From contig CALUWA010000001.1 of assembly GCA_944324365.1 (NCBI GenBank), positions 124,001 through 188,000 of the forward strand: 64,000 nt of DNA, given 5' to 3'. The position numbers and the translations under genes were made by a program. The DNA comes from Candidatus Gastranaerophilales bacterium. Lineage in GTDB: Bacteria; Cyanobacteriota; Vampirovibrionia; Gastranaerophilales; Gastranaerophilaceae. This document shows positions 3,818 through 60,583 of this stretch, one piece after another; position 1 is the first letter of the stretch, and each line of letters opens with the position of its first letter. The notes below the pieces were generated by a model. It was not told the DNA's origin and made no database searches. It saw only the letters and a program-made list of their open reading frames with translations.

Positions 3818-3914
3818 TATTATCTCCCAGGCTTTTGTCCTTCCGTGTATGCAAAGTATCCCTTGCAAGTTTTCTCTCGGACCAGCTGCATCTAAGCACG
3901 GAACCCTAGAAAAC
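3818..3914 (-). promoter_or_regulatory. Guanidine-I (ykkC) riboswitch
   Basis: Read on the minus strand, the leader contains the conserved blocks in the right order: CTAGGGTTCCG, CTGGTCCGAGAG, ACACGGA followed by GGACAAAAGCC, and GGGAGATAA. These are the hallmark segments of the ykkC guanidine-I aptamer. It ends about 40 nt before the exporter's ATG. Guanidine binding is expected to switch on expression of the exporter. Confidence 0.92.
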
Positions 3915-4004
3915 ATTTGCTAGTATTATATTATAAATATTTTAATTCAACAAATTTACTGGCAAATTTTATTTTTATAGGTTTTATACTATTGGAGGTA
4001 AAGC

Positions 4005-5545: not shown

Positions 5546-5618
5546 TGCCGCGTCTCGGAATCGAACCAAGGACACAGGGATTTTCAGTCCCTTGCTCTAC
5601 CAACTGAGCTAACGCGGC
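5546..5618 (-). tRNA. tRNA-Phe (anticodon GAA)
   Basis: A 73-nt cloverleaf on the minus strand. It has acceptor GCCGCGT/ACGCGGC, D-arm AGCTCAGTTGGTAGAGC, anticodon loop CTGAAAA, T-arm GGTTCGATTCC and discriminator A. CCA is not encoded. Its first 13 nt and the D-arm sequence are partly copied in the repeat immediately upstream. Confidence 0.97.
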
Positions 5619-5792
5619 ATATTATATTCAATTATCAATGGAGTTGGTAGAGCAAGCTCTACATTTTTTGAACTCCGTTCCGTTTCACTCCACTGGGGGA
5701 GCTAACGCGGCATATTATATTCAATTATCAATGGAGTTGGTAGAGCAAGCTCTACGTTTTTTTGAACTCCGTTCCGTTTCACTCCACTGGGG
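5606..5792. repeat. Tandem 93/94-bp duplication containing the 5' end of tRNA-Phe
   Basis: Units at 5606-5698 and 5699-5792 differ by one substitution and one T in a homopolymer. Each contains the first 13 nt of tRNA-Phe, a 15-nt inverted copy of its D-arm (AGTTGGTAGAGCAAG), and a GTAGAG-CAAG-CTCTAC hairpin followed by six or seven Ts. A degenerate third copy of the ATTATCAAT part lies at about 5797-5833. An ORF spanning the units is repeat-derived and not a gene. Confidence 0.9.
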
Positions 5793-5947
5793 AAGTCTAG
5801 ACGGTATAACTTATTTAATTATCAATAACTCTCATTTAAAACTAATGGCAATAAAATCTTCTTTGGGATAAATGGATTCGAATATTCAATTGCCACGTTT
5901 TTAATAATACCTGCTAAAGATTTAAAGTCAAGAACTTTTTATCCAGT

Positions 5948-39314: not shown

Positions 39315-39391
39315 GGCGGGTGTCGTCAAGTGGTTAAGACCTCGGATTGTGGTTCCGATATGCATGGGTTCGAATCCCATCTCCCGCCCCA
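39315..39391 (+). tRNA. tRNA-His (anticodon GTG) with encoded CCA
   Basis: It has the extra 5' G paired to C73, D-arm GTCGTCAAGTGGTTAAGAC, anticodon loop TTGTGGT and T-arm ATGGGTTCGAATCCCAT, ending CCCGCC then CCA. One T-T mismatch sits in the acceptor stem. The last 19 nt plus the following Ts are repeated 195 bp downstream. Confidence 0.97.
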
Positions 39392-39591
39392 TTTTTGAAA
39401 GCTCTCCAGAAGGAGAGTTTTTTAATGTGCATGATGAGGATGAGAACCCATCAAGGCGAAGCCTTTAAAAGGGTTCGAGCGCGAGGCGGCAGAGAGCGGA
39501 GTGTTTTGCGAAAGTGTGAAACACTAAAGCAAAATACGAAGACTCGTTTAATGCCGCCGAGCAAGACAATCCCATCTCCCGCCCCATTTTT
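39373..39591 (+). repeat. tRNA-tailed palindromic element (copy C) flanked by duplicated tRNA-His 3' end
   Basis: A 24-nt exact direct repeat (AATCCCATCTCCCGCC, then CCATTTTT) occurs at 39373-39396, inside and just after tRNA-His, and at 39568-39591. Between the copies, after a terminator, lies element C (39433-39588): GATGAGGATGAGAACCC, an AAGGCGAAGCCTT hairpin, GAGCGCGAGGCGGCAGAGAG, CGGAGTGTTTTG and GCCGCCGAGCAAGACAATCC. It shares these blocks with copies A and B near tRNA-Ser. No recombinase is encoded in it. Confidence 0.85.
39402..39424 (+). terminator. Rho-independent terminator after tRNA-His
   Basis: Stem CTCTCC / GGAGAG with loop AGAA, followed by six Ts. Confidence 0.88.
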
Positions 39592-39619: not shown

Positions 39620-40141
39620 ATGAAAATAAGTTATGAATTTACATTAGAAGCTTGCAATATATATGTTAAAGAAACGTTCTTTATTAAAAAGTTATTTCTT
39701 TATTTTCTAAAGGATAATATACGTAGAGTGTTAATTTGTGCTTTATTACTATCTCTAGGCTTCGCCTGTTTATTTTATAGTTTCAACATTGCATTAATAG
39801 TTGTTCTATTTATAGTTATATTCTTATCTGAATATATTATTTGGAGTCTAATGGGTTACTTTTCAGGAGGAAAGTATGTTTATAGATTATTAGACGGTTT
39901 TGACAAGAATTACGAATTAATTGTAGAAAATGATATTATTAGAAGAAGATCAGGTTCCGGTGAAGTTTCTTTTACTTGGAACAATGTAAAGGACATCTAT
40001 AATACAAAGAAAAATATACTTATATTTGTATCGGATAGACAGGCTCTCATTATTCCTAAGAGAGTTTTTAATAGCGAACGAGAAATCAATGATTTCTGGC
40101 ATTTAGTTTCATCATGCTATCAAAGAACTAACAGTAAGTAA
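39620..40141 (+). CDS. YcxB-like membrane protein
   Basis: 173 residues from the ATG at 39620 (MKISYEFTLEACNIYVKETF); the longer open frame upstream only runs through the tRNA and repeat and is not coding. Two membrane helices (about 35-75), then a soluble tail with FTWNNVKDIYNTKKNILIFV and ALIIPKRVFNSE, the signature of YcxB-like C-terminal domains. Role unknown. It directly follows the tRNA-tailed element. Confidence 0.75.
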   Translation: MKISYEFTLEACNIYVKETFFIKKLFLYFLKDNIRRVLICALLLSLGFACLFYSFNIALIVVLFIVIFLSEYIIWSLMGYFSGGKYVYRLLDGFDKNYELIVENDIIRRRSGSGEVSFTWNNVKDIYNTKKNILIFVSDRQALIIPKRVFNSEREINDFWHLVSSCYQRTNSK

Positions 40142-47006: not shown

Positions 47007-47089
47007 AAACGCCCCGTTATATTAAAAAAGCCGTGCCACTGTCTATCGAATTTATACAAACAAAATATCAGATAATATTTTCTCCTTTT

Positions 47090-47287
47090 AAAACAAAAAC
47101 ACCCGCAAAGGTTACCTTAGTGCTGCTATGTTTCCATCCTGACACGGTTCGGCATTTTACGCCGCTCAAGCCTTAAATATCAACAAAAATATTAACTTTT
47201 ATCCTGATGCACAAACCCTCACAACAGGCTCTGCACCCCGCCTACACTTCGGGTCAAGAGATTGCAATTCCCCGTGGAGCACGGCTT
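47090..47287 (-). ncRNA. ffs: Signal recognition particle RNA (large, Bacillus/cyanobacterial type)
   Basis: On the minus strand, the conserved helix-8 block reads CCGTGTCAGGATGGAAACAT followed by AGCAGCACTAAGG, containing GTCAGG..GGAA...AGCAG. It is preceded by GCCGTGCTCC..CGGGGA at the 5' end. The roughly 190-nt length implies an Alu-type domain. A T-rich tract (TTTTTGTTTT) follows the 3' end. It fills most of the 416-nt gap between the deacetylase and the 79-residue gene. Confidence 0.85.
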
Positions 47288-59400: not shown

Positions 59401-59494
59401 CAGAGAGGATGGGATTGTCTTGCTCGTCGGCGATAAACAAGTCTACGTGTTTTGCTATTGCAAAACACTCCGCTCTCTGCCTCCTCGCGCTCAA
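59401..59494 (-). repeat. tRNA-tailed palindromic element, copy A (tRNA-Ser tail)
   Basis: On the minus strand it runs GAGCGCGAGGAGGCAGAGAG, CGGAGTGTTTTG, loop, GCAAAACAC, GTAGACTTGTTTATCGCCGA and CGAGCAAGACAA, ending TCCCATCCTCTCTG, the last 14 nt of tRNA-Ser. About 93% identical to copy B. It lies directly after the antitoxin gene, about 1 kb from tRNA-Ser. Confidence 0.85.
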
Positions 59495-59548
59495 AAGTTA
59501 TATCCAAAATGAAAAACAAGTTGAGTGTTTTTATAAATTTTGAGTATT

Positions 59549-59845
59549 TTAGGCAACCTGAACAGTATAGCCTAACTCTTTAATAATTTTTAGAGTAGTA
59601 ACCAATTGAGGCTGTTGCTCACCATTAAAAATGGCATAAAGATTACTTCTTGAAATACCCGTTTTTTTAGATATTCCCGATATAGAGTCTTTTGCTCTTA
59701 CTGCATATTCTAAAGCCTTTACAAAGGCATTTAGATCATTGTCTTGCAAAAACTCTTCAAATCCGATATTTATCCATTCTTTTATATCTTCATCCGTTTT
59801 TAAATCATTTAAAATATATTCATTAAAAGATTTTGATTTAGTCAT
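59549..59845 (-). CDS. HTH antitoxin (HigA-like, addiction-module antidote family)
   Basis: 98 residues from the ATG behind GGAGG (MTKSKSFNEYILNDLKTDED). C-terminal helix-turn-helix: GISKKTGISRSNLYAIFNGE. The match is to small antidote proteins that pair with RelE/ParE-like killers. It overlaps the toxin gene by 8 nt and comes second, the HigBA-type order. It should bind the operator upstream of the toxin. Confidence 0.9.
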   Translation of the reverse strand: MTKSKSFNEYILNDLKTDEDIKEWINIGFEEFLQDNDLNAFVKALEYAVRAKDSISGISKKTGISRSNLYAIFNGEQQPQLVTTLKIIKELGYTVQVA

Positions 59846-60164
59846 ATCTATGCCTCCATTGTTTAAGAAGTTCTTGTGCATTTTGAATATCTTTTGATTG
59901 TTTTGATTTATCACCGCCATTTATCAGTAAAACTATTTTATAATCTATTTCTGTATAATAAATTCTGTATCCCTTGTCAAAATTAAAACGTAGTTCTGAA
60001 ATATCCTCGGATAACTTTTTGAAATCTCCGAAATTTCCATCTTCAATCCTGAGTATTCTTTGAGTTATTCGTTTTCTGATGCCACTGTCTAAGGCATTCA
60101 ACCACTCAATTATTGGAGCTTTACCATTTGGCAATATCAGGTACTCAATAACATATTCATTCAT
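59838..60164 (-). CDS. RelE/ParE-superfamily toxin (HigB-like)
   Basis: 108 residues from the ATG at 60164. IIEWLNALDSGIRKRITQRI, FGDFKKLSEDISELRFNFDK, YRIYYTEIDYKIVLLINGGD and KSKQSKDIQNAQELLKQW are the phage-derived Gp49-like/HigB fold. Such toxins usually cut mRNA at the ribosome. The start codon lies 6 nt after the -10 box, so its mRNA appears leaderless, whereas the antitoxin has a strong ribosome site. Confidence 0.9.
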   Translation of the reverse strand: MNEYVIEYLILPNGKAPIIEWLNALDSGIRKRITQRILRIEDGNFGDFKKLSEDISELRFNFDKGYRIYYTEIDYKIVLLINGGDKSKQSKDIQNAQELLKQWRHRYD

Positions 60165-60170
60165 AATTAT

Positions 60171-60199
60171 ATTGTACTGTATACAGGACATATTGTCAA
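60171..60199 (-). promoter_or_regulatory. Toxin-antitoxin promoter with palindromic operator
   Basis: TTGACA (60199-60194), 17 nt, TACAAT (60176-60171), then 6 nt to the toxin ATG. The perfect palindrome CTGTATACAG (60177-60186) sits against the -10 box, as expected for autorepression. Confidence 0.75.
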
Positions 60200-60263
60200 G
60201 CAATATAAGAGCATGTTCGCAATAATTAAGCACATACACGATTTTTATATTTTTTAACATAAA

Positions 60264-60396
60264 CAGAGAGGATGGGACTGCCTTGCTCGTCAGCGATAAA
60301 CAAGTCTACGTGTTTTGCAATACAAAACACTCCGCTCTCTACCTCCTCGCGCTCAAACCTTCTACCAAGCTCACGCTTGGTGGTTCTCATCCCATC
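60264..60396 (-). repeat. tRNA-tailed palindromic element, copy B (tRNA-Ser tail)
   Basis: Minus strand: GATGGGATGAGAACC, a CCAAGCGTGAGCTTGG hairpin, then GAGCGCGAGGAGGTAGAGAG and the same core as copy A, ending CAGTCCCATCCTCTCTG. Its ends GATGGGA and TCCCATC are inverted repeats. It lies between the toxin promoter and the true tRNA-Ser 3' end, 164 bp from the latter. Confidence 0.85.
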
Positions 60397-60427
60397 ATAC
60401 GTAATTTTCATATCTTTCAACAAAAAA

Positions 60428-60515
60428 CAGAGAGGATGGGATTCGAACCCACGGTGGAACATAATCCCACACAACCTTTCCAAGATTGCACCTTAAACCG
60501 CTCGGACACCTCTCT
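60428..60515 (-). tRNA. tRNA-Ser (anticodon GGA)
   Basis: 88 nt with the long variable arm (TGTGGGATTATGTTCCAC), anticodon loop TTGGAAA, T-arm GTGGGTTCGAATCCCAT-type and acceptor AGAGAGG / CCTCTCT plus discriminator G. CCA is not encoded. Its 3' 14 nt recur at 60264 and 59401. Confidence 0.96.
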
Positions 60516-60583
60516 GTATATCAAAATATTTAATTGTCTGCATACAAGATAACATAAAATATACTGATTGTAAATACAAAAAA

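Follow-up and report, generated by a model that had tools for sequence, protein, structure and literature searches.

The gene for tRNA-His(GTG) in a Candidatus Gastranaerophilales bacterium raises the question why its 3' end is repeated exactly a short distance downstream, and what kind of DNA lies between the two copies. The locus is located in a stretch of 64,000 nucleotides (nt) of contig CALUWA010000001.1 (assembly GCA_944324365.1, positions 124,001 to 188,000, forward strand), hereafter called the window, and the genome to which it belongs is referred to as G000. On balance, the locus probably contains a non-autonomous mobile repeat unit that is anchored to the tRNA and belongs to the class of the RtT repeats of Escherichia coli; such a unit would be recognised by its structure and would insert at nt 58/59 of the T-loop, the tRNA 3' end being regenerated. 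A known but poorly understood kind of repeat is thereby much enlarged, to units that occur at multiple tRNAs, can carry genes and belong to another phylum. No paper on the Gastranaerophilales units or on tRNA-tail repeats was found in the literature searched, which misses most subscription journals.

Anatomy of the unit behind tRNA-His

The 24-nt sequence AATCCCATCTCCCGCCCCATTTTT could be located in two exact copies at 39373-39396 and 39568-39591, with a start-to-start spacing of 195 bp, as stated in the initial annotation, which had been made from the letters of the window. The DNA between the copies is indeed related, as also stated there, to two elements (A and B) behind the tRNA-Ser(GGA) gene of the same window (blastn E=2e-18 and 9e-16). 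For searches, a covariance model built from ten copies (R1) and an improved model (R2) were used. The locus is composed of the following features:

39316-39391, + strand: tRNA-His(GTG), the presumed insertion host, with a T6.T67 mismatch in the acceptor stem (ARAGORN; Rfam tRNA, 58.6 bits; comparison with the sister genome G009)
39374-39388, + strand: nt 59-73 of tRNA-His, copy 1, ATCCCATCTCCCGCC (sequence; tail-tRNA comparison)
39402-39423, + strand: S region, a hairpin resembling an intrinsic terminator, then T6 (sequence)
39433-39449, + strand: head, consisting of GATGAGGAT, which pairs with the tail, GAG, and AACCC, which pairs with the T-arm copy (RNA fold; permutation test)
39453-39465, + strand: small hairpin AAGGCGAAGCCTT (covariation, helix 2)
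39471-39478, + strand: copied 5' half of the T-arm, GGGTTCGA (sequence)
39479-39568, + strand: body, a structured stem with tandem GA pairs and CAAGACA at its end (R1 match 39432-39570, 170 bits; covariation)
39569-39583, + strand: tail, nt 59-73 of tRNA-His, copy 2 (sequence; tail-tRNA comparison)

Read in the orientation of the tRNA, the units in general show the same order, i.e. nt 59-73, S, head, small hairpin, a copy of the T-arm 5' half that ends in TTCGA, a body of ~80-105 nt with CAAGACA at its end, and a second nt 59-73. Their lengths range from 135 to 230 nt, the majority being 160-195 nt. The terminator-like hairpin between tRNA and head could be identified in 51/75 units, compared to 14/75 shuffled sequences. 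The duplication that is general to the units comprises nt 59-73 only (15 nt); A58, a CCA encoded in the gene and a run of Ts make up the rest of the 24 nt and are present in both flanks at tRNA-His, where they are shared coincidentally. Because the unit lies between two copies of nt 59-73, the tRNA stays intact.

Hosts, tails and fold of the units

R1 gave 18 matches at E<=1 in G000, of which ~14 are clear copies, and nearly all are located directly 3' of a tRNA or transfer-messenger RNA (tmRNA) gene. Hosts on long enough contigs are tRNA-Ser(GGA) and Arg(CCT), twice each, as well as tRNA-His, Leu(CAG), Ala(GGC), Lys(CTT), Ser(TGA), Asp, Lys(TTT) and tmRNA. R2 matched 245 of 286 Gastranaerophilales genomes, and over the order the hosts amount to ~30 tRNA/tmRNA types, in line with the initial annotation, which had placed the element at a second tRNA locus. 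Among the matches listed for a phylum sample of 292 genomes, all fell within the order Gastranaerophilales. When all body types are counted, 17 of the 38 tRNA/tmRNA genes of G000 have a downstream copy of their own nt 59-73. The same plan with other body families was found at Glu(CTC), Glu(TTC), Thr, Val and Leu(TAA) (loci L204, L207, L209, L210, L172 and L175) and at Gly in G009; since these additional families follow the same tail logic, the modelled family covers only part of the class. A weak body-like match without a tRNA (L035, G000:C3:43759-43883) was observed between genes that read as rpoB and rpoC.

The tail was identical to nt 59-73 of the nearest upstream tRNA in 14 or 15 of 15 bases for 91 of 100 units, whereas comparisons with other tRNAs peaked at 7-8 of 15 matching positions; the match between tail and tRNA is therefore not due to chance. 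Distant tails with no tRNA nearby also gave the correct gene, as a His-type tail has tRNA-His ~14 kb upstream and a tmRNA-type tail has tmRNA 22.7 kb upstream. The idea that the tail always equals the nearest tRNA stands for these 91 units but not as a strict rule, since the tails of a few units (e.g., L053 and L065) match no tRNA in the surrounding DNA examined; these units are probably decayed copies. Identity ends exactly after nt 73 in 17/100 loci, and sometimes CCA is encoded behind one copy only (tmRNA, Asp). The junction is a fixed position, T-loop nt 58/59, at which the local sequence varies with each tRNA. The motif TCCCATC, which had been proposed as a 7-nt recombination core, is merely nt 60-66 of tRNA-His and tRNA-Ser(GGA), and this proposal had to be abandoned.

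At nt 67 the window tRNA-His has a T, while the tRNA of G009 still has A67, T67 being present in the tail there. Judging from these aligned sequences, the window tRNA apparently took over the base of the tail and thereby acquired its T6.T67 mismatch, and this overwritten base suggests that units can alter essential tRNAs. The difference between the window and G009, a single observation, puts an exchange left of nt 67.

Blocks of identity that end at a tRNA 3' end are typical of the attachment (att) sites of phages and islands. The two copies of nt 59-73 could be the attL and attR of lost integrative elements, i.e. scars of tRNA-targeting phages or islands, and identity from the T-loop to the tRNA 3' end would then be expected because attP must restore the tRNA. 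Besides this identity, a large-serine-recombinase island between tRNA-His and its unit in genome G012 fits such an origin. Scars of this kind would not be expected to have uniform lengths and one strongly covarying fold over hundreds of genomes; the units are compact and without an integrase, one body occurs at many tRNAs, and a search for viral carriers gave four matches, all unrelated. An origin as scars is considered very improbable.

The fold was analyzed over 120 distinct copies, in which both partners vary in 31 of the 33 pairs and 93.1% of the pair cells are standard. The covariation score is 0.497, compared to 0.127 in shuffled and at most 0.072 in slid controls. The underlying alignment was made by fitting to the model and is biased in favour of the structure, but both controls remain far below the score. 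Read on the tRNA-sense strand, G.T strongly exceeds A.C (181 vs. 24) and G.A strongly exceeds T.C (164 vs. 9), and therefore the tRNA-sense strand is the strand with the kept structure. The His unit folds as RNA into a three-way junction with z = -7.8, compared to -5.2 for the DNA fold. Its closing helix GATGAGGAT/ATCCCATC uses the tail, and is followed by the helix AACCC/GGGTT and then by the body. Heads pair better with their own tail than with other tails (5.3 vs. 4.25 pairs, 0/2000 permutations), and the head signature GRYGAGAA is present in 51/75 units where 2.45 were expected from shuffles.

Relation to the RtT repeats of E. coli and Salmonella

The repeats of the E. coli tyrT operon have been known for decades, and to our knowledge their origin and function are without an accepted explanation. 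The literature on them includes Bosl and Kersten (1991; cited in PMC2965389), published covariation work described a tandem GA motif in RtT (PMC7657543, PMC8250186), and a 175-bp rtT variable number tandem repeat is on record for Salmonella (PMC2658671).

Behind tyrV of E. coli K-12, copies of nt 59-73 could be located at 178, 356 and 534 bp, and these are the RtT repeats of Rfam (RF00391), with the head GGGGAAGGATGAGAAGC, the T-arm copy AAGGTTCGA and a tail-closed fold. A Salmonella record contains two RtT copies behind tRNA-Pro at offsets of 168 and 337, whose tail and head (GAGGATGAGAACC) both match tRNA-Pro. An RtT query matched 4709 of 5426 complete E. coli genomes at 1-10 places. Natural empty sites are found in at least four E. 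coli genomes (H93-H96), in which a query of tRNA-Tyr plus native flank was matched in one intact piece; arrays with one to three units gave places of ~352, 529 and 707 bp, respectively. Strain M10 has no units at all, also not between its two tRNA-Tyr genes. As the repeats are present in K-12 and precisely absent from other natural E. coli strains, mobility, RNA production and the need for an enzyme are testable in laboratory strains.

The Gastranaerophilales units resemble RtT (E. coli tyrT operon; RttR; tpr locus) in that they are located directly 3' of a tRNA and delimited by a duplicated tRNA 3' end that starts in the T-loop. In both, the head (GGATGAGAA) is the reverse complement of the T-arm with GAGAA replacing TTCGAA and closes the junction with the tail, and the T-arm copy, the tandem GA motif, more than one host tRNA, variable copy number and empty sites are shared. 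In contrast to RtT, the Gastranaerophilales units belong to another phylum, use ~30 tRNA/tmRNA types with several units per genome, are mostly fronted by a terminator, carry genes in some cases and have different bodies. When R2 was run unfiltered on 12 kb of enteric DNA, the top 11 matches fell on RtT heads, yet with E values of 0.04-0.56. The architecture of the units and of RtT is the same and the class is probably the same, without the units being members of RF00391. These results indicate that the repeats known from tyrT belong, as one example, to a class that is found at 17/38 tRNA/tmRNA genes in G000, follows the sequence of each host tRNA and in some cases carries genes of the toxin-antitoxin type and the like.

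Alternatively, the units might be host RNA genes like RtT, in which the tail would let tRNA 3'-processing enzymes release an RNA that extends from behind the tRNA to the CCA of the tail, the units having arisen by ordinary duplication and being kept for regulation. The annotated RttR of K-12 fits this, with its start 8 nt behind tyrV and its end at the CCA of tail copy 1, and so do the G.U and tandem G.A pairs kept in the tRNA-sense fold and the lower z of the RNA fold. It is difficult to reconcile with the terminator-like hairpin between tRNA and head, with gene cargo, with sister loci that have no unit and with units that moved between tRNAs (see below), and a host RNA gene is regarded as unlikely.

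Insertion, cargo and candidate enzymes

Tandem units and gene cargo are both present at the tRNA-Ser(GGA) locus of the window:

60427-60516, - strand: tRNA-Ser(GGA), host of elements A and B (ARAGORN)
60264-60398, - strand: element A from head to tail, with the tail at ~60264-60278 (R1 match 60277-60398, 92.9 bits)
59549-60260, - strand: cargo of element B, genes for a Gp49-like (HigB-type) toxin and a HI1420-type antidote (open reading frames; Pfam PF05973, PF21716)
59401-59495, - strand: element B, a body with no clear head and a tail at ~59401-59415 (R1 match 59414-59542, 82.9 bits)

Empty orthologous sites, as sought in the initial annotation, exist. The sister genome G009 is empty at most genes that carry units in G000. 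At Ser(TGA), the G000 sequence past the tail matches the sequence that immediately follows the tRNA in G009 (z 9.2), compared to z -0.7 for the S of the unit; the flank comparison was decided at this locus, the other loci being too diverged. One unit type can be found at different tRNAs: the G000 units at Ala(GGC) and tmRNA are 94% identical, each with the tail of its own tRNA, and the G012 units at Leu(CAG) and Gly(CCC) are 88% identical with differing tails, each fitting its own tRNA. The right end of the shared sequence is fixed and its left boundary is variable, as S is shared by the Ala/tmRNA pair but not by the Leu/Gly pair, and element B is headless.

This pattern of ends would also suit an element resembling a short interspersed nuclear element, whose RNA would be copied into the target by a reverse transcriptase acting in trans and priming at a T-loop nick, with the 15-nt repeat as target-site duplication. 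Such retrotransposition would account for a tail that matches the new tRNA. However, no RVT_1 gene was found in G000, G004, G040 and G054 despite their many units, and 1 of 20 reverse transcriptase loci lies near a unit; a retro-element is therefore thought highly unlikely, and reverse transcriptases were rejected as mobilising enzymes.

The genes carried between tail and body include those for a toxin-antitoxin pair, a Fic protein, a BRO-domain (BRO-N) protein and a membrane protein. A YcxB-like gene (window 39620-40141) was observed directly 3' of the His tail and is missing at the corresponding place in G009; it is possibly further cargo.

For the favoured mobile repeat unit we infer an enzyme acting in trans, a working strand of either RNA or single-stranded DNA and the copying of a new tail. 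The enzyme would recognise the strand in its folded form, in which the tail derived from the tRNA contributes to the closing helix, and would insert the unit at T-loop 58/59, comparable to the use of a folded attC by integron cassettes. With its terminator, head, hairpin, T-arm copy and body, the unit would come to lie between two copies of nt 59-73, with the original 3' end and flank displaced downstream. More units would stack at the identical boundary, cargo would be located on the side of the body that faces the tRNA, and units could be lost by recombination between tails.

Integron cassettes are similar in having a folded site (attC) at the unit 3' end with cargo ahead of it, tandem arrays at a fixed boundary and toxin-antitoxin cargo. 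The units differ in that their boundary is the tRNA T-loop, ~15 nt of the target are repeated and the tRNA-sense strand folds, and none of the four tyrosine recombinases in G000 is above the IntI cut-offs. A more tentative proposal is that tRNA T-loops serve as genome-wide cassette insertion sites, where a structure-recognising recombinase would join folded units, whether or not they carry genes, to nt 58/59 of nearly any tRNA/tmRNA gene, and tail and head would be rewritten for each tRNA. If true, this would be an integron-like gene capture with tRNA genes replacing attI, in Gastranaerophilales and, as RtT, in enterobacteria. Casposons are similar in that 14-15 bp of the target are duplicated beside a tRNA 3' end and a leader motif lies upstream (PMC6614799), but the units have no visible terminal inverted repeats, and Cas1 is missing from G000 and most unit-bearing genomes. 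Repetitive extragenic palindromes (REP) and bacterial interspersed mosaic elements (BIMEs), with their REP-associated tyrosine transposases (RAYT), are likewise short, folded, non-autonomous repeats, and some enteric BIMEs were noted as resembling rtT (PMC2965389).

Several further candidates for a mobilising enzyme gained no support. Cas1 (casposase) is present in 10 of 60 family genomes and does not track the units, the DEDD transposase of IS110 (bridge RNA) was found in 0/14 unit-bearing genomes, and no integron integrase was found above the cut-offs in G000. Nearly all genomes in which a RAYT gene is present also have units, but the RAYT gene of G000 (L151, G000:C18:22087-22455) is flanked by its own REP, GTAGGTTGGGCATACTTGCCCAAC, and not by units; 1 of 20 RAYT loci has a unit nearby, and that unit is located next to its own tRNA. 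The tyrosine-recombinase candidates of G000 include a small recombinase of 179 aa, and a dedicated enzyme of this type is not supported, as the gene count does not track the units and G046 has two only.

Several results weigh against a mobile unit of the RtT class. No mobilising enzyme was identified among the candidates examined, and the two tyrosine recombinases of the unit-bearing G046 are XerC and XerD, which are both universal. No fresh insertion within one species was seen in Gastranaerophilales, and changes in array length can also be explained by plain tandem duplication and homologous recombination. Neither the window nor 20 loci contained a match to the RF00391 covariance model, even at E<=10, and the units and RtT are only weakly similar in sequence; the claim is therefore held to a shared architecture and class and not to membership of RF00391. 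No other Rfam family matched the window element.

In G012, two larger elements were observed at units. A ~14-kb island between tRNA-His and its unit (G012:C2, L139/L082) contains a putative large serine recombinase gene adjoining tRNA-His and, as predicted from their sequences, a small tyrosine recombinase and a retron-like reverse transcriptase. Behind tmRNA (G012:C1, L140/L089), the unit body is apparently interrupted by a Mu-like transposon that has a PF09299 transposase and an AAA ATPase and carries efflux-type and restriction-type genes, with a possible 5-bp duplication, GCGAG. Both were read as separate elements inserted into units and were rejected as mobilisers.

On the 5' side of the tRNA-Phe gene of the window (5606-5826), tandem repeats of ~93 bp were observed that contain a copy of the tRNA 5' end, a reverse complement of the D-arm and an unrelated short body; at the D-loop, this plan mirrors that of the units. 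Comparable 5' copies are present in G000 upstream of tRNA-Ile (L202, -139 and -279) and tRNA-Thr (L172, -89). Rfam further identified a Guanidine-I riboswitch (3822-3920) and a bacterial large signal recognition particle RNA (47031-47284) in the window.
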